This document shows, piece after piece, positions 2,778 to 10,759 of a DNA stretch of 64,000 bases. The first letter of the stretch is position 1, and each line of letters starts with the position of its first letter. The stretch comes from Anaerohalosphaera lusitana. GTDB taxonomy: Bacteria > Planctomycetota > Phycisphaerae > Sedimentisphaerales > Anaerohalosphaeraceae. The position numbers and the translations under genes were made by a program. A model generated the notes under the pieces. The model worked only from the letters and a program-made list of their open reading frames with translations, made no database searches and was not told the DNA's origin. The DNA is taken from contig NZ_CP019791.1 in assembly GCF_002007645.1 (NCBI RefSeq), positions 1,116,001-1,180,000 of the forward strand, read 5' to 3'.

Positions 2778-3947
2778 ATGAGCGGTAAGGTTACTTTGCA
2801 GATGTTTGTGGTTCTGGCGGTTGTTGGTTGTGTAATCGCGTTGTGGGGCGGTGCCGTGTTGGCGGCTGAAGAGGGGTCGGATGCCGGTGGGGAGCGAGCG
2901 GCAGATGTGATGGAGATCGCGGGCAAGGAGGTGGAGTTCGTGATGTTCGAGCCGGTGTATGAGTGGCGGATCGAGCCTTTTGAGAGGGGGCCGGTGGATC
3001 CGGGGTATGCGGCGAAGGTGATGATGAGGACGGACAGGGATATTTCCAGGAATGTCGAGTCGATCGATCTCGTCAACGGTATTTTGTCGACGGAAGCGGC
3101 TGAGGGGTTCAGCAGTGAGCAGAGGGACTTTTTGAAATATACGAGCGCGCCGCGATGTTTGCAGAGGCTGTACGCTCGGTATGGTGCGCAAACGTGGGTT
3201 GTGTTCGGTGTGAGTGAGAAGGATACGAAGCTGATGGTGAAGGCGTTTGCTCAGTTTGCGCGGGATTACGGCGAACAGTTTATCGAGGAGAAGCGGCAGA
3301 GGATGGAGGAACTGCAGGGGAAGATAGCAGAGCTTAAAGATAAGCGGGAAAAGAATGAGAAGCTGATCGAGGAATACCGCGAGCGGCTCGAGAAGGTCAA
3401 GGAGAGCACGATATATACGTCGGCACTTGAGGCGAGGGAGGCAGCGACGAGGTTGACTTCGCGGATGGAGGAGCTGAAGCTGGCGATCGCGGCGCTGGGG
3501 CCGAAGGCGGAGGTTTATGCGGGTACGCCGAAGGAGCTGGAGTTCAAGGCGGAACTGAAGGCGGCTGAGAATGAGTTCGAGGTCGTGAAGAAGATGCGGG
3601 ATGAAGCGAAGGATCTTAGTGAGCTGCCGGGCAAGATAGATGCATTGTCATTGTCGGTTGAAGGAATAGTTACCCGAAGCATGCCAAATCGTCCAAGAGG
3701 ACGTACACCAAACAGACGCACACCTGTGAGAAGGCCACCAGCCAGCAATACTCGCGGGTTGACGACCTTCAGAGGGACGGAGCTGGAGGGTTTGCGGCAT
3801 GATCTGGAGGAGGTTGAGGAGTGGCTGTCTGAGCCGCATATTTCGCTGGTGCGTTCAGAGATATATGACGCGGTTTCGATACAGCCTGTGGAGGTTGTCG
3901 AGACGGACAGGAGGGATACTCCGTGGACGCCTGCGCGACGGCGGTAG
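2778..3947 (+). CDS. Secreted coiled-coil protein, paralogue 2
   Basis: A 389-residue tandem paralogue of the preceding gene, with the same start block (ATG-AGC-GGT-AAG after TGGAGGCAATAGA) and a signal peptide ending near VLAAEEG. It has the same domain order: a variable acidic N-terminus, FSSEQRDFLKY, VSEKDTKLMVKAF, a coiled coil from about residue 170 to 300 (including TRLTSRMEELKLAI), then a divergent segment at about 300-330 rich in Arg, Pro and Thr (RPRGRTPNRRTPVRRPPA) that the first copy lacks. The basic linker has a different base composition from its surroundings and may be a later insertion. It ends in TPARRR. The pair probably forms one transcript, closed by the terminator at 3976. 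Function unknown. Confidence 0.8.
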   Translation: MSGKVTLQMFVVLAVVGCVIALWGGAVLAAEEGSDAGGERAADVMEIAGKEVEFVMFEPVYEWRIEPFERGPVDPGYAAKVMMRTDRDISRNVESIDLVNGILSTEAAEGFSSEQRDFLKYTSAPRCLQRLYARYGAQTWVVFGVSEKDTKLMVKAFAQFARDYGEQFIEEKRQRMEELQGKIAELKDKREKNEKLIEEYRERLEKVKESTIYTSALEAREAATRLTSRMEELKLAIAALGPKAEVYAGTPKELEFKAELKAAENEFEVVKKMRDEAKDLSELPGKIDALSLSVEGIVTRSMPNRPRGRTPNRRTPVRRPPASNTRGLTTFRGTELEGLRHDLEEVEEWLSEPHISLVRSEIYDAVSIQPVEVVETDRRDTPWTPARRR

Positions 3948-3975
3948 TTTGATTAAAGTCGGTAAGTTAATTAAG

Positions 3976-4007
3976 AACGGTCGGCGGTTTCGTCGGCCGT
4001 TTTTTTT
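3976..4007 (+). terminator. Rho-independent terminator after the coiled-coil pair
   Basis: An 11-bp stem (AACGGTCGGCG with CGTCGGCCGTT, including G-U pairs) and a 4-base loop are followed directly by a run of eight T. It sits about 30 bases after the stop of the second coiled-coil gene. Confidence 0.85.
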
Positions 4008-4124
4008 GGTATTTTGGTGATGGGTTGCGTTGAAAAAGGTTTTGCGGGGTTGGGGTGGTTTGGGTATTATTGGGGTGCTGGTTTTTTATTGTGGGTGATC
4101 CTTTTTGATTTGTGAGGTTATTTT

Positions 4125-7100
4125 ATGTTTCGGTGTGATCCTGGCGGGCGGGTAGTTTGCGGTGTTTTGGCGGGAGTTCTTTTTTTGATGTGCGGGGTAT
4201 TGATTGCGGGCGGTTCGGCAGAGGATTATGCTCGGGCGAATCGGCTGCGAGGGATGACGCGGGGGAAGGTTGTTGGGTCGAAGCTGGAGGCGCACTGGCT
4301 TGACGGGGGGCGGATGTGGTATCGTGCGGATCACGGGGACGGGGCGTATGAGTATGTTCTGGTGGATGCTGAGAAGGGCGAGAAGGGGGCCGCGTTCGAT
4401 CATGAGCGGATGGCGGAGGCGTTTCGGAAGGCTGGGGAGGCGGACGTTCGGGCGGGTCGGCTTGGGATCGATGAGCTGAAGTTTGGGCCGGGGGATGAGT
4501 GGGTGGAGGTTACGAGGCGGGGGAAGGTGTGGCGTTATGATGCGGAGGGCGATGAGGTTGAGTTTGTGCGGTATGATGACGGGGGGCTGCTGCGTGCGAT
4601 CGAGCCGGGGGAGGGGCCTGAGCGGAGCGGGGGAGCGAGGTACGATAGTTCGGTGACGTTCGTCAACTGCACTGATGAGACGGTGGAGCTATTCTGGCTG
4701 GATTCGCGGGGGGATCGGCAGAGTTACGGCAAGTTGGGCCCTGGGGATCAGATGGAGCAGCATACGTATGCGGGGCATGTGTGGGTCGCGGCGGATGAGA
4801 TGGGGGAGGCGATCGCGAAGTATGTTGCGAAACGCAAGGCGGGGACGGCGCTGATCGGGAAGGACGTGGAGGTCGAGGAGAAGGAAGATCGGCGGGAGCG
4901 CACGCGGCGGGATCGGGCGGTTAGTCCGGATGGAGAGGTGCGGGCGTTCATTCGTGAGCATAACGTTTGGGTGCGGATGACGGACGGGGGTGAGGAGGTG
5001 CAGTTGAGCAGGGACGGGACGGCGGATCGGCCTTATACGGGGGAGTTTTATTTTTCGCCGGATTCGCGGAAGCTGGTGGTGATGCGGACGAAGAAGGGCG
5101 AGGAGCATAAGGTCTATATGGTGGAGTCTTCGCCGAGAGATCAGGTGCAGCCCAAGCTGCATACGATCGATTACTTGAAGCCGGGGGATGAGATACCGCT
5201 GGATCGGCCTTACCTGTTCGATCTGCGGGAGCGAGCGGATGTGGAGGTTGGTAACGAGCTGTTCGAGAATCCGTGGAGCATTACGCGGCTGGCGTGGGAT
5301 GGGGATTCGGGGCGGTTTACGTTTGTGTATAATCAGCGCGGGCACCAGGTGCTGCGGGTTGTGGCGGTGGATGCGGAGACGGGGAAGGCGGAGGCGATAA
5401 TCGATGAGCGGAGCGACACGTTTATATGCTATTCGAGCAAGATGTATTATCGGTATATGCAGAAGACGGGGGAGATGATATGGATGAGCGAGCGTGACGG
5501 GTGGAACCATCTTTATTTGTATGACGCGAATACTGGGGAGGTTAAGTGCCGGATCACGGGTGGGGCACCACGAAGGCACGAAGGACACGAAGGAAAGTTA
5601 GGTAAGAAGGGAAATAGGAGTCGCTTCGCGACGGCTGATCTTATGCTGGGTCTGCCTGCGGTGGATGACATTATGGGGAGGGATGACACTAATGGCGGGG
5701 CATTTGGTGATGCGAGTGCAGGGCGTGCATGCGGAGGCGATGTGTTCTCTGGGCCCCGGATCAAGTCCGGGGTGACAGTTGTTGGCGGGGATGATGAATT
5801 TGCGGTTGATCTTATGGTGGGTCCGCCTGGGGCGGATGACGTTATGGGGAGGGATGACACTAATGGCGGGGCATTTGGTGATGCGAGTGCAGGGCGTGCA
5901 TGCGGAGGCGATGCGTTCTCTGGGCCCCGGATCAAGTCCGGGGTGACAGTTGTTGGTGGGGATGATGAATTTGCGGCGGTCGGTCCAGATGAGGACGGGC
6001 TGTTGGGGTCGTCGGGATTGAGATTGCCACGTCGCTTCGCTCCTCGCAATGACAGTGGTGGCGGGGCATTTGGTGATGCGAGTGCAGGGCGTGCATGCGG
6101 GGGCGATGTGTTCTCTGGACCCCGGATCAAGTCCGGGGTGACAGATGTTGGCGGGGATGATAAATTTGCGGCTGATTTTATGCTGGGTCCGTCTGCGGCG
6201 GATGACAATAATGGCGGGGCATTTGGTGATGTGGGTGCAGTGCGTGCATGCGGGGGCGATGCGTTCTCTGGACCCCGGATCAAGTCCGGGGTGACAATTG
6301 TTGGCGGGAATGACAAATTTGCGGCGGTCGGTCCAGATAAGGACGGGCTGTTGGGGTCGTCGGGGTTGAGATTGCCACGGGGTTTTGCCGCTCGCAATGA
6401 CGGTCTTGTGTGCGGGGGTGATGGCAGTGTGGGTACAGGTCGGCCTACGGCGGCGGTTAGAGGAGGGGCGAAGGCGGATGAGGTTGAGGAATGGATCGCG
6501 AAGGGGGAATGGGTTGTGCGTGAGGTTGTGCGGGTGGATGAGGCGAAGCGTGAGATATTATTCAAGGCTGGGGGGATTTTGCCGGGGCAGGATCCGTACT
6601 ATGTGCATTATGCGCGGGTGAATTTTGACGGGACTGGGTTGACGGTGCTGACGGAGGGGGACGGGACGCATGAGGTTGAGTTTTCGCCGGACGGGAAATA
6701 TTTTGTGGACAGCTATTCGCGGGTGGATATGCCGGGGGTGCATGAGCTGCGGCGGAGTGAGGACGGGGAGCTGGTGTGTGAGCTGGAGCGGGCGGACTGG
6801 AGTACGCTGCTGGCGACGGGTTGGCAGGTGCCGGAGCGGTTCGCGGCGAAGGGGCGGGACGGCGAGACGGATATTTACGGGGTGATATGGCGGCCGACGA
6901 ATTTTGATGCAAGCAAGAAGTATCCGGTGATCGAGAGTATTTACGCTGGGCCGCACGGGTTCTTTACGCCAAAGGGGTTCCGGTCGTACTATGGGCAACA
7001 GCGGCTGGCGGAGCTTGGGTTTATCGTGGTGAAGTGCGACGGGATGGGGACGAACGGGCGGAGTAAGGCGTTTCATGATGTTTGCTGGAAGAATTTGAAG

Positions 7101-7595
7101 GACAGCGGATTTCCGGACCGGATCGCGTGGATGAAGGCTGCGGCGAAGGATCGGCCTTGGATGGATGTGTCGCGGGTGGGGATATACGGCGGGTCGGCTG
7201 GGGGGCAGAGTGCTGCGTGTGCGGTGATGACGCAGGGGGATTTTTATGATGCGGCGGTTGCGGACTGCGGGTGTCATGACAATCGGATGGACAAGATTTG
7301 GTGGAACGAGCAGTGGATGGGGTGGCCTGTGGATGAGTCGTATGCGGAGAATTCGAACGTGACGCTGGCGAAGGGGCTGGAGGGTAAGCTGATGCTGACG
7401 GTGGGGGAGCTGGATAAGAACGTGGATCCGGCGAGTACGATGCAGGTGGTGGATGCGCTTATTCGGGCGGATAAGGATTTCGATCTGATCGTGTTTCCGG
7501 GGGGCGGACATGGTGCGGGCGGGTCGGCGTACGGGCGGCGGCGCAGGGCGGATTATTTTGTGCGGCATTTGCTGGGGGTGGAGCCGCGATATTAG
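4125..7595 (+). CDS. S9 prolyl peptidase (DPP-IV type) with VHL-like beta domain and repeat insertion
   Basis: A 1156-residue secreted peptidase of family S9B, normally 700-850 residues. In order: signal peptide (1-33); a region of unknown fold; a VHL-type beta domain at about 174-225; DPP-IV beta-propeller blades from about 265 (VSPDGEVRAF, FYFSPDSRKLVV); a repeat insertion at about 479-785; the resumed propeller (GEWVVREVVRVDE, PGQDPYYVHYARVNFDG, FSPDGKYFVDSYSRVD); and the alpha/beta-hydrolase domain from about 915. The catalytic triad is visible: Ser in YGGSAGGQSA, Asp in GELDKNVDPA and His in FPGGGHGAGG. The family removes dipeptides with proline at the second position. The insertion keeps the frame and sits in a propeller loop, between GEVKCRIT and KGEWVV, which are adjacent in ordinary relatives. 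Whether the product is active is unknown. Codons are strongly G-rich. Confidence 0.93.
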   Translation: MFRCDPGGRVVCGVLAGVLFLMCGVLIAGGSAEDYARANRLRGMTRGKVVGSKLEAHWLDGGRMWYRADHGDGAYEYVLVDAEKGEKGAAFDHERMAEAFRKAGEADVRAGRLGIDELKFGPGDEWVEVTRRGKVWRYDAEGDEVEFVRYDDGGLLRAIEPGEGPERSGGARYDSSVTFVNCTDETVELFWLDSRGDRQSYGKLGPGDQMEQHTYAGHVWVAADEMGEAIAKYVAKRKAGTALIGKDVEVEEKEDRRERTRRDRAVSPDGEVRAFIREHNVWVRMTDGGEEVQLSRDGTADRPYTGEFYFSPDSRKLVVMRTKKGEEHKVYMVESSPRDQVQPKLHTIDYLKPGDEIPLDRPYLFDLRERADVEVGNELFENPWSITRLAWDGDSGRFTFVYNQRGHQVLRVVAVDAETGKAEAIIDERSDTFICYSSKMYYRYMQKTGEMIWMSERDGWNHLYLYDANTGEVKCRITGGAPRRHEGHEGKLGKKGNRSRFATADLMLGLPAVDDIMGRDDTNGGAFGDASAGRACGGDVFSGPRIKSGVTVVGGDDEFAVDLMVGPPGADDVMGRDDTNGGAFGDASAGRACGGDAFSGPRIKSGVTVVGGDDEFAAVGPDEDGLLGSSGLRLPRRFAPRNDSGGGAFGDASAGRACGGDVFSGPRIKSGVTDVGGDDKFAADFMLGPSAADDNNGGAFGDVGAVRACGGDAFSGPRIKSGVTIVGGNDKFAAVGPDKDGLLGSSGLRLPRGFAARNDGLVCGGDGSVGTGRPTAAVRGGAKADEVEEWIAKGEWVVREVVRVDEAKREILFKAGGILPGQDPYYVHYARVNFDGTGLTVLTEGDGTHEVEFSPDGKYFVDSYSRVDMPGVHELRRSEDGELVCELERADWSTLLATGWQVPERFAAKGRDGETDIYGVIWRPTNFDASKKYPVIESIYAGPHGFFTPKGFRSYYGQQRLAELGFIVVKCDGMGTNGRSKAFHDVCWKNLKDSGFPDRIAWMKAAAKDRPWMDVSRVGIYGGSAGGQSAACAVMTQGDFYDAAVADCGCHDNRMDKIWWNEQWMGWPVDESYAENSNVTLAKGLEGKLMLTVGELDKNVDPASTMQVVDALIRADKDFDLIVFPGGGHGAGGSAYGRRRRADYFVRHLLGVEPRY
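5560..6480. repeat. Mosaic of palindromic repeats inserted in frame in the S9 peptidase gene
   Basis: About 920 bases with no counterpart in the peptidase family, built from short elements. E3 (5567-5593) repeats CACGAAGG. E4 (5618-5649) has the palindrome TCGCTTCGCGA. E1 occurs four times (5743-5776, 5914-5947, 6110-6142, 6263-6295), each GTTCTCTGG..CCCCGGA-TCAAG-TCCGGGG-TGAC. E2 occurs twice (6018-6054, 6366-6401), running from TTGAGATTGCC to CTCGCAATGAC. E1 sits in a larger unit coding for GGAFGDASAGRACGGD and SGPRIKSGVT; unit starts are 171, 195 and 153 bases apart, all multiples of three. E1, E2 and E4 recur at 9.0-9.9 kb. Confidence 0.88.
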
Positions 7596-7681
7596 AGGGG
7601 ACGAAATTTTTTGTTACGTTGTTGCGGGTGGTGCGTCTTCATGTTTGAAAGACGAGTTGCGGTTAGATTTGGATTGATGAT

Positions 7682-8938
7682 ATGAGACGTTTATTGGTAT
7701 TTGCTGTTATTTTGGTGGTTAGCGGGGCTGTGTTTGCGGTGGAGCAGGAGGCGGAGGATGTGCGATCGATCGTGGAGGGGATCGAGAATGCTGAGCTGCG
7801 GGAGCAGTTGCTGGAGGAGCTAGAGGAGAATCCGGAATCGGATTTAAGCAGTATCGGGCTTGACGGGTTAAATGATCTTGGCGGATTAGAGGAGTTGGCC
7901 AATATCGAAACGTTAGGTCTGGCGAAAAGCCAAGAAGTTGATATGAGCCCGGTCTCAGAGTTACCAAGTCTGGGGTGTTTAATGCTTTTTGATTGCACAA
8001 AGATTCTATGGAATTCAGATTCTTTAAACACAAGCTGTGAAGTCCTTGTGATTTCGAAATCCGATCTGAAAGAAATTGATTTCGTGAGCAAGCTGCCAAA
8101 CCTTAAAATGATTTCTATCAGGGATTCAAGTGTCAACGATTTGTCTTCGATCAAAGCGTTGAAAGGACTCCGTATCCTTAGTTTAAAAAATTTTAAGGGC
8201 CAGAAAAACCTGGCATTTATAGGGGAGATGACTTCACTAAAGGGGCTTACAATTAAAGGAGTTGAGGCGCTAAAGTTCCCGAGTTTCTCAAAATTGCGAC
8301 ATCTTGAATGGCTTGATATTGCTGATGCCAATTCAGTTGACGTTAGAACAATCAACAGCAGAAATACTTTAAGAGAACTGTATTTGAAAAATGATCATAT
8401 ATCGAACATCTCATTTCTAAAGAGACTGCCGAACATTGAAATTGCGCACTTGGATGACAATCCAATCAAAGATTTTCGACCGTTATCTGCTCTGAAGAAG
8501 CTCAAAAACGTGTCTCTCAGCAATACTGGGTTCTCAGACTTCAAGGTACTTGGAGGAATGAGTGAGCTTGAGACTGTCTATGCTGAGGGGAATGGGATTG
8601 CGAGTCTGGACGATGCGGAAGAACTTATAGGGATCAAGAGTCTGCGTTTACGAAACAATAAGCTTAAGAGCTTGGCGGGAATAAAAGTGCTTAGCTCGCT
8701 TACAAGTTTGGATGTGAGAGATAATCGATTATCGAGCATTGAAGAAGTCGCTCATTTGAAGAAGCTGGGGGCGTTGTGTTTAAGTGGGAATAAAATCAAG
8801 AGCATTGCCCCTGTTGCGGAATTGAGCGAGCTATGGTTTTTGCAGTTGGATAGTAAATTACCCAATATGGAAGAGGCTCAGCAGGTTATTGGAGAATTGC
8901 GTGAGAGGAATCCGGATTTGTATGTCTGGTGGGATTAG
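7682..8938 (+). CDS. Secreted leucine-rich-repeat protein
   Basis: A 418-residue protein with a signal peptide (MRRLLVFAVILVVSGAVFA) followed by an acidic, helix-prone stretch (EDVRSIVEGIENAELREQLL). From about residue 60 it carries roughly 14 leucine-rich repeats of 21-23 residues of the internalin/LRR_4 type, clearest in the second half: LDDNPIKDFRPLSALKKLK, LRNNKLKSLAGIKVLSSL, VRDNRLSSIEEVAHLKKL, LSGNKIKSIAPVAELSEL. It ends soon after the last repeat (LYVWWD) with no membrane anchor. It is probably a periplasmic or surface protein binding another protein. The first 60 codons are G-rich like the neighbours, whereas the repeat region is AT-richer with different codon choice, which hints at a composite origin or looser constraint. 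Confidence 0.85.
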   Translation: MRRLLVFAVILVVSGAVFAVEQEAEDVRSIVEGIENAELREQLLEELEENPESDLSSIGLDGLNDLGGLEELANIETLGLAKSQEVDMSPVSELPSLGCLMLFDCTKILWNSDSLNTSCEVLVISKSDLKEIDFVSKLPNLKMISIRDSSVNDLSSIKALKGLRILSLKNFKGQKNLAFIGEMTSLKGLTIKGVEALKFPSFSKLRHLEWLDIADANSVDVRTINSRNTLRELYLKNDHISNISFLKRLPNIEIAHLDDNPIKDFRPLSALKKLKNVSLSNTGFSDFKVLGGMSELETVYAEGNGIASLDDAEELIGIKSLRLRNNKLKSLAGIKVLSSLTSLDVRDNRLSSIEEVAHLKKLGALCLSGNKIKSIAPVAELSELWFLQLDSKLPNMEEAQQVIGELRERNPDLYVWWD

Positions 8939-9013
8939 GGTTATTCTTTCTCTTCTACTGGGAGTGGTGTTGGGTGCAGTTTGTTTTGTATGAGCTGTCG
9001 AAAATTATCGGCT

Positions 9014-9052
9014 TTGAGATTGCCACACCGCCTTTGGCGGCTCGCAATGACA
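9014..9052. repeat. Intergenic copy of palindromic element E2
   Basis: This element runs from TTTGAGATTGCC to CTCGCAATGACA and lies between the convergent leucine-rich-repeat and DUF4186 genes. Its inner arm CCGCC-TTT-GGCGG differs from the other copies, but the change occurs on both sides so the stem is kept. It is the only copy in the window that is outside a gene, and it shows the element is not tied to coding sequence. Confidence 0.75.
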
Positions 9053-9152
9053 CCGTTTTATTGTTTGCGTGTTTGGCCCCTCAACCCTGATAGAATGGGT
9101 TTTGCAGGGTGTTTCTGCGATGGTAATTGGGATGATCAAGGGACTGTGGCGG

Positions 9153-9995
9153 CTAATTAAATTCGATTTGTTTTTTTAGCCATTGTTGGATGGTGTTTAG
9201 GATGTGGGTTTGCTGGGTTGGGGTTATTGGGGTGTGTTTTGGGATGTTGTGGTGTTTTTGGAGGCAGGAGCGGCAGCAGGTGGCGGTGGCGTGTTGGGCT
9301 ATGAAGACGGGGTGATTGCGGAAGGGGGTTTGTTTGCCGTCGTTGGGCGGGTCGGCGGGTGCGATGCGGGTGGTGATGAAGTCGCGGGCGTGTTCCATGA
9401 TGGTTGGCAGGCCCTTTTGCTGGAGGTAGGCGAGTTCGCGGTTCTTGAGGCGGAAGCGGGAGCGGAATTTTGAGCTTGCTAGGCGGGCGAAGAGTGCGTC
9501 GAGGTTTGGGGGCTGCCATGCGGGGATGGACGAGCCATTTAAATTTTTTGGCTTTGAGATTGCCGCGTCGCCTTCGGCTCCTCGCAATGACATTTTCTCA
9601 GGTGGGGCGGTGTTTGGGTGGTCCGTTTTGTTCGCTGGGTGGTCTCTCGCAGGCTGGGTCGCCTGCTCGGGTTTTGAAGAATGGAATCGCTTCGCGATGG
9701 TTGTTTTATGCTGGGCCCCCGCCTGCGCGGGGGTGGCAAATAGGGAGGGTTGCTCATTTCGGGTCGGCTGTTCGGGTTTTGGGGTGGGTTCGGGTTCGGT
9801 GCATATGAGATGGGCCTTGGTTGCGGTATCGGTCATTTGCTGATGTATTTGACTTGACCGTGCATGCGCCCCCGTGGTGTTCTCTGGGCCCCGGCTCGCA
9901 GGCCGGGGTGACGGATTTTTTGTATTCTTGGAGGTGCGCGGGTGTTCGCTGAGGTCGAAGAGGGTTGGGTGGTTTTTGTTTGGTTTTCGGGTCAT
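9153..9995 (-). CDS. DUF4186 protein with repeat-derived N-terminal extension
   Basis: A 280-residue product. The C-terminal roughly 115 residues are a clear DUF4186 domain: FARLASSKFRSRF, LPTIMEHARDFI, PPNDGKQTP, then HPVFIAQHATATCCRSCLQK with a Cys-Cys-x-x-Cys motif that may bind metal. The family's role is unknown and members are usually only about 110-130 residues long. Here residues 1-160 are extra and mostly consist of translated palindromic repeats (ASRGPENTTGAHAR, SLFATPAQAGAQHKTTIAKR, SLRGAEGDAAISKPKN). The ATG at 9995 overlaps the DUF2905 stop (ATGA), which argues that translation really begins here through coupling, although no ribosome site is visible. If an internal Met were used (for example before TDTATKAHL), part of the extension would be lost. 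Confidence 0.82.
   Translation of the reverse strand: MTRKPNKNHPTLFDLSEHPRTSKNTKNPSPRPASRGPENTTGAHARSSQIHQQMTDTATKAHLICTEPEPTPKPEQPTRNEQPSLFATPAQAGAQHKTTIAKRFHSSKPEQATQPARDHPANKTDHPNTAPPEKMSLRGAEGDAAISKPKNLNGSSIPAWQPPNLDALFARLASSKFRSRFRLKNRELAYLQQKGLPTIMEHARDFITTRIAPADPPNDGKQTPFRNHPVFIAQHATATCCRSCLQKHHNIPKHTPITPTQQTHILNTIQQWLKKQIEFN
9554..9912. repeat. Three palindromic elements inside the DUF4186 gene
   Basis: Within the 5' half of the minus-strand DUF4186 gene lie, in plus-strand order, an E2 copy (9554-9592, GAGATTGCCGCGTCGCC to CTCGCAATGACA), an E4 copy (9684-9716, GAATCGCTTCGCGATGG then TTTATGCTGGG) directly followed by a CCCCCGC-CTGC-GCGGGGG hairpin, and an E1 copy (9879-9912, GTTCTCTGGGCCCCGGC then GCCGGGGTGAC). 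All three families also occur in the S9 peptidase insertion. The E1 loop bases differ (TCGCAG here, TCAAG there), while the paired bases change together. Confidence 0.85.
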
Positions 9996-10225
9996 TTTGA
10001 GAAGTGGTTTATGAGCCAGAAGATGGCTGTGAGGATGATGGAGAGGATTATTGAGGTTGCGAGGGGGAAGTAGAACTTGAAGTTTTTGCGATCGATGAAG
10101 ATGTCGCCGGGGAGTTTGAACAGGCCGAGGCGGGGCAGGAGGATCATGGCCAGGCCCAGCAGGGCGATGAAGGCGGCGATGATCAGGAGGAGCTTGCCGA
10201 GTTGTTGTGGGTTGAAATTTTCCAT
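9992..10225 (-). CDS. DUF2905 small membrane protein
   Basis: A 77-residue DUF2905 protein of the usual family length. The family core is plain: two transmembrane helices (about 10-30 and 52-74) around the conserved LPGDIFIDRKNFKFYFPLAT loop. The function is not established; members are widespread in bacteria and often sit beside unrelated housekeeping genes. Its TGA overlaps the ATG of the DUF4186 gene (ATGA), giving a two-gene minus-strand operon. It starts at ATG 10225 with a weak upstream purine stretch. The next plus-strand gene starts more than 500 bases away, so the promoter must lie in the 10226-10759 gap. Confidence 0.9.
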   Translation of the reverse strand: MENFNPQQLGKLLLIIAAFIALLGLAMILLPRLGLFKLPGDIFIDRKNFKFYFPLATSIILSIILTAIFWLINHFSK

Positions 10226-10759
10226 CTTTTGAGGGATTTTCTTACAGTTCGCTGTTGTTTGACGATCCTAGAGACGTTTTTGCAAAGTTTTTTTACGGTC
10301 AGTCTATGTTACCGTAATGCGGGGTCGGATGCAAAGAGTGAAGGTGTTTTGTTTTGCAGAGACTCATGACGGTGTAGTCTCTATGAAGTAGGTATATTTG
10401 TCGAGTTTCTGTGAAAACCGCCTTCAGAAGCTGTACAGCGGGATTTTTTGTGGTAAAGACAGCAAATTTAACATTGTGTGTTTTGATGTCATAGAGTACC
10501 TTGCTTATAAGGAGTGTCAGTTGGGGTGTTTTGGTTATTACCTCCGATTGGCGACTAGTTTTGATGACTTTTTTGGATTTATCCTTGAGATTAGAGTTGA
10601 TGGCCTATAGCATTTTTATGAACTGCAGGTCGGGGGGGCATCACTTTAGCGCGAAAGGGCGAGGTGTAAGATGCGGCAGCACGGACCAACCTGCAGAGAC
10701 GGAGTCCGATGAATTTAAGCGTTTAAAAAAGATATTACTCTATTTGAAAGGGGCAGCAA
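10226..10759. other. 534-base gap with a candidate structured leader
   Basis: No convincing gene is present; short plus-strand ORFs here have neither a ribosome site nor recognisable sequence. At 10291-10316 there is a small inverted repeat, TTACGGT with ACCGTAA. At 10623-10696 an 8-bp closing stem, CTGCAGGT with ACCTGCAG, encloses a second stem (GCAT/ATGC plus CAC/GTG). A competing stem, CGGAC (10682-10686) with GTCCG (10704-10708), would trap the 3' arm of the first. Such alternative pairing just upstream of the porin's AAAGGGG ribosome site is what a riboswitch or attenuator would look like, but I match no known class. Confidence 0.45.

Follow-up and report, generated by a model that had tools for sequence, protein, structure and literature searches.

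The window, that is, the whole stretch of 64,000 nucleotides that was analysed, carries on its forward strand a gene for an exported S9/DPPIV-like peptidase, whose reading frame is open over its whole length. Pfam places DPPIV_N (PF00930) at residues 258-481 and Peptidase_S9 (PF00326) at residues 958-1142, on either side of a block of palindromic elements, and the orthologues are contiguous over this site, in agreement with a preliminary description of this DNA which had seen here a continuous S9 propeller interrupted in frame. The closest solved structures are bacterial DPP IV enzymes, e.g. 2d5l and 5olj. The protein also has a VHL-beta-like domain (PF01847; residues 168-224, window 4626-4796), and the stretch surrounding it aligns in the orthologues as well. 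The features of the locus, all on the forward strand, are:

4125-7595, forward: host gene, exported S9/DPPIV-like peptidase of 1156 amino acids including the insert (open reading frame, Pfam, about 100 orthologues)
5538-5558, forward: left flank, end of the stretch coding for GEVKCRIT; candidate left copy of a short duplicated target (compared with 6480-6500)
5559-6500, forward: in-frame insert, mosaic of palindromic elements, residues 479-792 (absent in orthologues, stop-free, AlphaFold2 pLDDT below 50)
5569-5593, forward: F6, CACGAAGGCACGAAGGACACGAAGG (5 genome copies)
5616-5637, forward: F4, GTCGCTTCGCGAC hairpin (fixed spacing of 3 nt to F5, 10 genomic pairs)
5647-5669, forward: F5, degenerate copy (motif match)
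5721-5776, forward: unit 1, composite of F3 and F1, F1 being CCCCGGATCAAGTCCGGGGTGAC (motif match)
5818-5840, forward: F5, TGGGTCCGCC NNN GGCGGATGAC (66 genome copies at up to 2 mismatches)
5892-5947, forward: unit 2, F3 and F1 (a single difference to unit 1 over 95 nt)
6024-6053, forward: F2, TTGCCACGTCGCTTCGCTCCTCGCAATGAC (35 genome copies at up to 3 mismatches)
6087-6142, forward: unit 3, F3 and F1 (motif match)
6184-6206, forward: F5 (motif match)
6240-6295, forward: unit 4, F3 and F1 (motif match)
6372-6401, forward: F2, variant copy (motif match)
6480-6500, forward: possible right, diverged flank copy, coding for EVEEWIA (compared with 5538-5558)

The insert measures 942 nt or 314 codons, a length divisible by three, and contains no in-frame stop. 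When the protein was compared by tblastn with 109 orthologous loci (29 in genomes of the same family and order; the other 80 in public genomes, among them Planctomycetota and Verrucomicrobiota; some contigs being included twice), the alignments stopped at about residue 480 and restarted at about residues 782-791, with nothing between in the orthologue. Because the empty site of the orthologues is exact, VKNQIT being followed directly by KGEWVV in an uninterrupted ..TGxVKNQIT KGEWVV.., the insert can be delimited to residues 479-792 (5559-6500). It had initially been placed at 5560-6480, which gave its location correctly but fell about 20 nt short at the right end. Among the 109 loci compared the 314 extra residues occur in this genome only, and neither the block nor any other domain is found at this site in any of them, which is the outcome of the orthologue comparison that the preliminary description had suggested. 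AlphaFold2, run with 36 orthologues, predicts a folded propeller and a folded hydrolase, but pLDDT drops below 50 over residues 481-793 (22-42 for the insert), which are flanked by strands at residues 473-476 and 797-805. The insert is composed of 22% Gly and 12% Asp. At its junctions the two flank sequences agree at 15 of 21 nt, with P = 6e-4 when in-frame host pairs are taken as the reference for this fixed position; an unrestricted local alignment search gave no significant direct repeat, and as read from the sequence a target duplication at this junction is only suggestive.

Six motifs, F1 to F6, were defined from the peptidase block and then counted in the 4.25-Mb genome. The preliminary description rightly saw several element families here, but its count of four is too low, the motif families numbering six or more. 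A pattern search of the genome returned 10 copies of F1, 35 of F2, 66 of F5 and 5 of F6, and the fetched loci hold 159 element copies in 73 clusters, about 70 of them intergenic, which bears out the earlier claim that the elements also occur outside the block. Two of the 73 clusters lie deep within conserved genes, namely the peptidase block with 13 copies and an array in murF with 7. Internal spacings are fixed in intergenic and genic arrays alike (3 nt between F4 and F5, ten times; 1 nt between F3 and F1, nine times). Within the peptidase block the four F3-F1 units differ pairwise by 1-7 of 95 nt and encode four near-identical peptide units DASAGRACGGDVFSGPRIKSGVT with a conserved Cys. Their starts are spaced by 171, 195 and 153 nt, as noted before, each distance being a multiple of three like the total length of the insert, and the proposal that the block grew by duplications that kept the frame withstood these tests.

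F2, with 34-35 copies here, is missing from almost every family member that was sampled, and therefore the elements have expanded in this lineage. A stretch of 35 nt with F2 is found at 97-100% identity in two human-gut phage records, MT839991.1 and MT835503.1; judging by these sequence matches, an F2-type element has spread very widely. A phage or plasmid source of the block was considered and rejected, as these two records match F2 only and plasmids gave no match. Elements also touch the ends of other genes. An acyltransferase and a CAAX-protease-like protein (loci L149, 9732-9754, and L156, 13209-13251) end in residues encoded by F4 elements, which thus supply their C-termini. The reading frame of a DUF4186 gene (window 9153-9995, reverse strand) extends N-terminally by about 165 residues through similar elements, an extension which is probably upstream DNA rather than real protein. 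Long reverse-strand reading frames over intergenic arrays were dismissed as further insertions, since they are shadow frames without a Pfam match.

The second genic array is an independent case. It occupies about 200 codons, in frame, of murF (genome 939307-941274; locus L141, 4308-6278), immediately upstream of mraY, and is a mosaic of elements as in the peptidase. In a protein-level search of the genome it was the sole other genic recurrence of the block peptide; no further insertion was found. The first 16 residues of this MurF (MKAITIRELAGAVGAV) match the N-termini of the inspected orthologues (MK..LA..I.A) and the catalytic domains match from about residue 222, with about 200 mosaic residues in between. 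For 57 relatives that have the corresponding part of murF, the alignment begins only at about residue 195-226, and the array is absent in all 57. Beyond residue 175 the frame offers no further start codon ahead of the conserved domain, and therefore at least about 45 element-encoded MurF residues must be translated, regardless of the start that is chosen. No further murF-like match was found in the genome. A flank copy at murF scores 38, well above shuffles (24.4, sd 3.1), but is situated some 80 nt inward of the right end of the array.

Is the openness of these frames a property of the repeats themselves? The preliminary description had suspected that it partly is and had cautioned that the opposite strand is open as well. 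One reverse frame is indeed open across the peptidase block, and because of this freedom from stops is not unique to the host frame. Then again, the host frame contains no stop in 314 codons of the peptidase block and none in 200 codons of the murF array, whereas in 26 intergenic arrays read in element orientation stops occur at 3.3 per 100 codons, and still at 1.9 per 100 when the most open frame of each array is taken. The openness is thus, as suspected, only partly a property of the repeats. The other two forward frames have 7 and 32 stops in the peptidase and 5 and 17 in murF. In F1, F2 and F5 a TGA stands nearly always in one fixed frame (tag TGAC), and every scanned copy of these families in the two genes sits outside that frame. 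F1 and F4 occur in more than one reading phase: the phase of F4 differs between peptidase and murF, and F1 occurs in two phases within murF. Insertion was therefore blind to phase, and selection retained the open outcomes. The units differ from each other at 9 of 95 sites, which fall on codon positions 1, 2 and 3 in the proportion 2/5/2, and G at third positions amounts to 35% in the insert as compared to 60% in the host, whose bias the insert does not share. With neither an excess of third-position changes nor the codon bias of the host, there is no sign of amino-acid constraint on the insert. This, together with the disorder predicted by AlphaFold2, makes it most likely tolerated selfish DNA.

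We therefore favour, with a probability of roughly 0.8, an in-frame mosaic of REP elements in the S9 propeller that has been duplicated and is translated as a tolerated, functionless and disordered loop. A mosaic array of TGTC-tagged, CGTC-type REPs, as present in intergenic spaces, would have entered a loop of the beta-propeller between two strands and would then have grown as segments were duplicated in frame. Versions with a stop or a frameshift would destroy the peptidase, which is why the host frame would have been kept. Most likely the block is translated into a Gly/Asp-rich disordered loop of 314 residues, which the propeller would tolerate and which would have no function of its own, being neutral or mildly harmful. 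The independent array in murF would indicate that even an essential enzyme tolerates such an insertion. Expression, tolerance and selfishness of the insert are what we infer from these data, and if the peptidase is dispensable, as it may be, the insert need not be tolerated in a strict sense.

Could the insert instead be a selected functional domain or linker built from repeat DNA, for instance for surface binding or S-layer anchoring? The long intact frame and the four near-identical peptide units with their conserved Cys could be read in this way. However, intergenic arrays and the gene for the cytosolic MurF contain the same DNA, the elements are read in more than one phase, the differences between units show no third-position excess and the insert is predicted to be disordered, all of which renders such a function very unlikely. 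That the peptidase is a decaying pseudogene, in which the block is debris still without a stop, would agree with an insertion recent enough for its units to have remained nearly identical, but 842 host codons are intact, identity to distant orthologues is 47-60% and the catalytic-type motifs (GGSAGG, D, H), invariant in the peptidase alignment, are retained in this protein too. Moreover, murF, which is expected to be essential and of which no other copy was found, has the same kind of insert. We thus regard decay as unlikely.

Translational bypassing over hairpin-rich inserts is known elsewhere, and the elements form strong hairpins, so that the block might be bypassed by the ribosome, or removed by RNA splicing, and never appear in the protein. 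Neither process would require the frame or freedom from stops, yet both were kept over 314 and 200 codons. No Rfam match was obtained in window 3900-10500, even at E<=1, and therefore no known intron lies there; Pfam detected no intein, Hint or endonuclease domain. An intron or intein was accordingly rejected, and removal of the block at the RNA level or during translation appears highly improbable. Finally, repeats commonly cause misassembly, but the genome is a single 4.25-Mb contig with 99.96% completeness, the four units differ at defined sites, and murF has an array of different construction, with the frame kept in both genes, which leaves an assembly artefact with very little probability.

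To which known elements are these repeats related? By their anatomy, as far as it can be read from sequence, they belong to the superfamily of CGTC-tagged REPs (CGTC-1 to CGTC-4; Di Nocera et al. 2013, PMC3733652), in which the unpaired tag at one end is CGTC or else TGTC or CCTC. They share with it such a tag and, in the clearest copies, a short stem starting with AT, a 5-nt loop and a CCA tail. Read in the other orientation, the clearest cores are TGTC-ATCCCGGA-CTTGA-TCCGGGAT-CCA, and 87 of 97 copies of F1, F2 and F5 have the tag TGTC and 3 of 97 CGTC. The stem of 8-9 bp, loop of 4-5 nt and CCA tail of CGTC REPs fit these F1 variants, the F1 core in the peptidase having 7 bp; F5 in contrast has a loop of 3 nt and F2 a longer, interrupted stem. 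As with CGTC REPs, copy number is high, most copies are intergenic and some intragenic, and there is no dedicated transposase. The differences concern arrangement, length and host. CGTC REPs form mostly head-head and negligible head-tail dimers, whereas here all multi-copy clusters are head-tail; the element-encoded stretches or clusters reported by Di Nocera et al. reach at most 43-82 amino acids, as compared to 314 and about 200 here; and the results section of that paper names CGTC repeats in Proteobacteria, Chlorobi, Bacteroidetes, Spirochaetes and Thermotogae, whereas the host here is of planctomycete type.

The parallel to the palindromic elements (RPEs) of Rickettsia drawn in the preliminary description survives. 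RPEs likewise insert in frame into unrelated conserved genes (Ogata et al. 2000, 2002, as summarised in the reviews PMC2229807 and PMC10969869), as is the case for the peptidase and murF, whose inserts are absent from orthologues, and in R. conorii the guanylate kinase that carries such an insert is translated and remains active, its affinity being altered (PMC2229807). The relation rests on PMC3733652, by which RPE-4 and RPE-6 of R. conorii are counted among the CGTC REPs. RPEs differ in being single elements of about 105-150 bp (about 30-50 amino acids), as opposed to multi-family mosaics duplicated to 0.6-0.9 kb. BIMEs and GTAG REPs with their RAYT (PMC8266576) share with the present arrays a mosaic of short palindromes and the presence of a RAYT gene in the genome, but have the tag GTAG instead of TGTC and occur in inverted pairs, which are missing here, and the RAYT gene of this genome shows no association with the elements. 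In-frame insertion of REPs and RPEs, including intragenic REPs in several phyla, is already known. New here are the size of the inserts (314 and about 200 amino acids), the planctomycete-type host, the strand-locked head-tail orientation and the multi-family mosaic.

Why would the elements of a cluster all point in the same direction? None of 43 multi-copy clusters contains both orientations; all are one-stranded. The elements point along whichever strand is locally G-rich in 72 of 73 clusters, with a median GC skew of 0.31 (binomial P 1.6e-20, neighbouring clusters not being independent), and the median absolute GC skew is 0.31 around clusters as compared to 0.08 in 20 spread-out 3-kb samples (Mann-Whitney P 4e-8). 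These gene and skew statistics are based on about 40 fetched element loci and the 20 samples, with gene calls from a home-made caller that misses some genes. The direction of neighbouring genes was rejected as the determinant, as the upstream gene is co-oriented in a ratio of 43:16 and the downstream gene of 32:29, whereas skew predicts 72 of 73. Extreme GC skew, 0.25-0.47 in one direction or the other, marks islands of the genome that also have a higher GC content, e.g. at 888-900 kb, 1116-1160 kb (window 1-44000) and 1312-1328 kb. The sign of the skew switches over 10-100 kb, and Pfam-verified genes on both strands of the islands share the strand bias.

This lock to a single strand suggests a strand-specific insertion process. 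A single-strand transposase would fit a single orientation along the G-rich strand, and the genome has one Y1/RAYT-like gene (genome 4079829, about 4.08 Mb; locus L161, 1207-1878, reverse strand; NCBIfam REP_Tyr_transpos, E 9e-18, below the family cut-off), so that the elements might be spread by this REP-associated tyrosine transposase, as has been proposed for GTAG REPs. The repeats on either side of that gene, however, are of another kind, GTGTCTGACCC, and no F1-F6 element was found at its locus, which makes its involvement rather doubtful. Our leading guess is a strand-specific, replication-linked movement of the elements. Tentatively, REPs may be deposited by a single-strand process that is specific to one strand, probably linked to replication or repair, and restricted to discrete islands of extreme asymmetry; this would explain the one-stranded arrays, the lock to the G-rich strand and the concentration at an absolute GC skew of about 0.3, and the genic arrays would be by-products.

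How transposase-less CGTC REPs spread was left open by PMC3733652, and the lock of orientation to local skew is a strong clue to it. As judged from their genes, the peptidase and MurF are probably both made with long floppy stretches of selfish DNA. If so, this suggests that proteins, among them a ligase essential for the cell wall, can take up selfish repeats to the extent of hundreds of residues, far beyond the published REP and RPE cases that we found, in a phylum that has been little studied for such insertions. The two genes would then offer a clean natural experiment on the amounts of random, disordered sequence that can be accommodated by a beta-propeller and by a Mur ligase.
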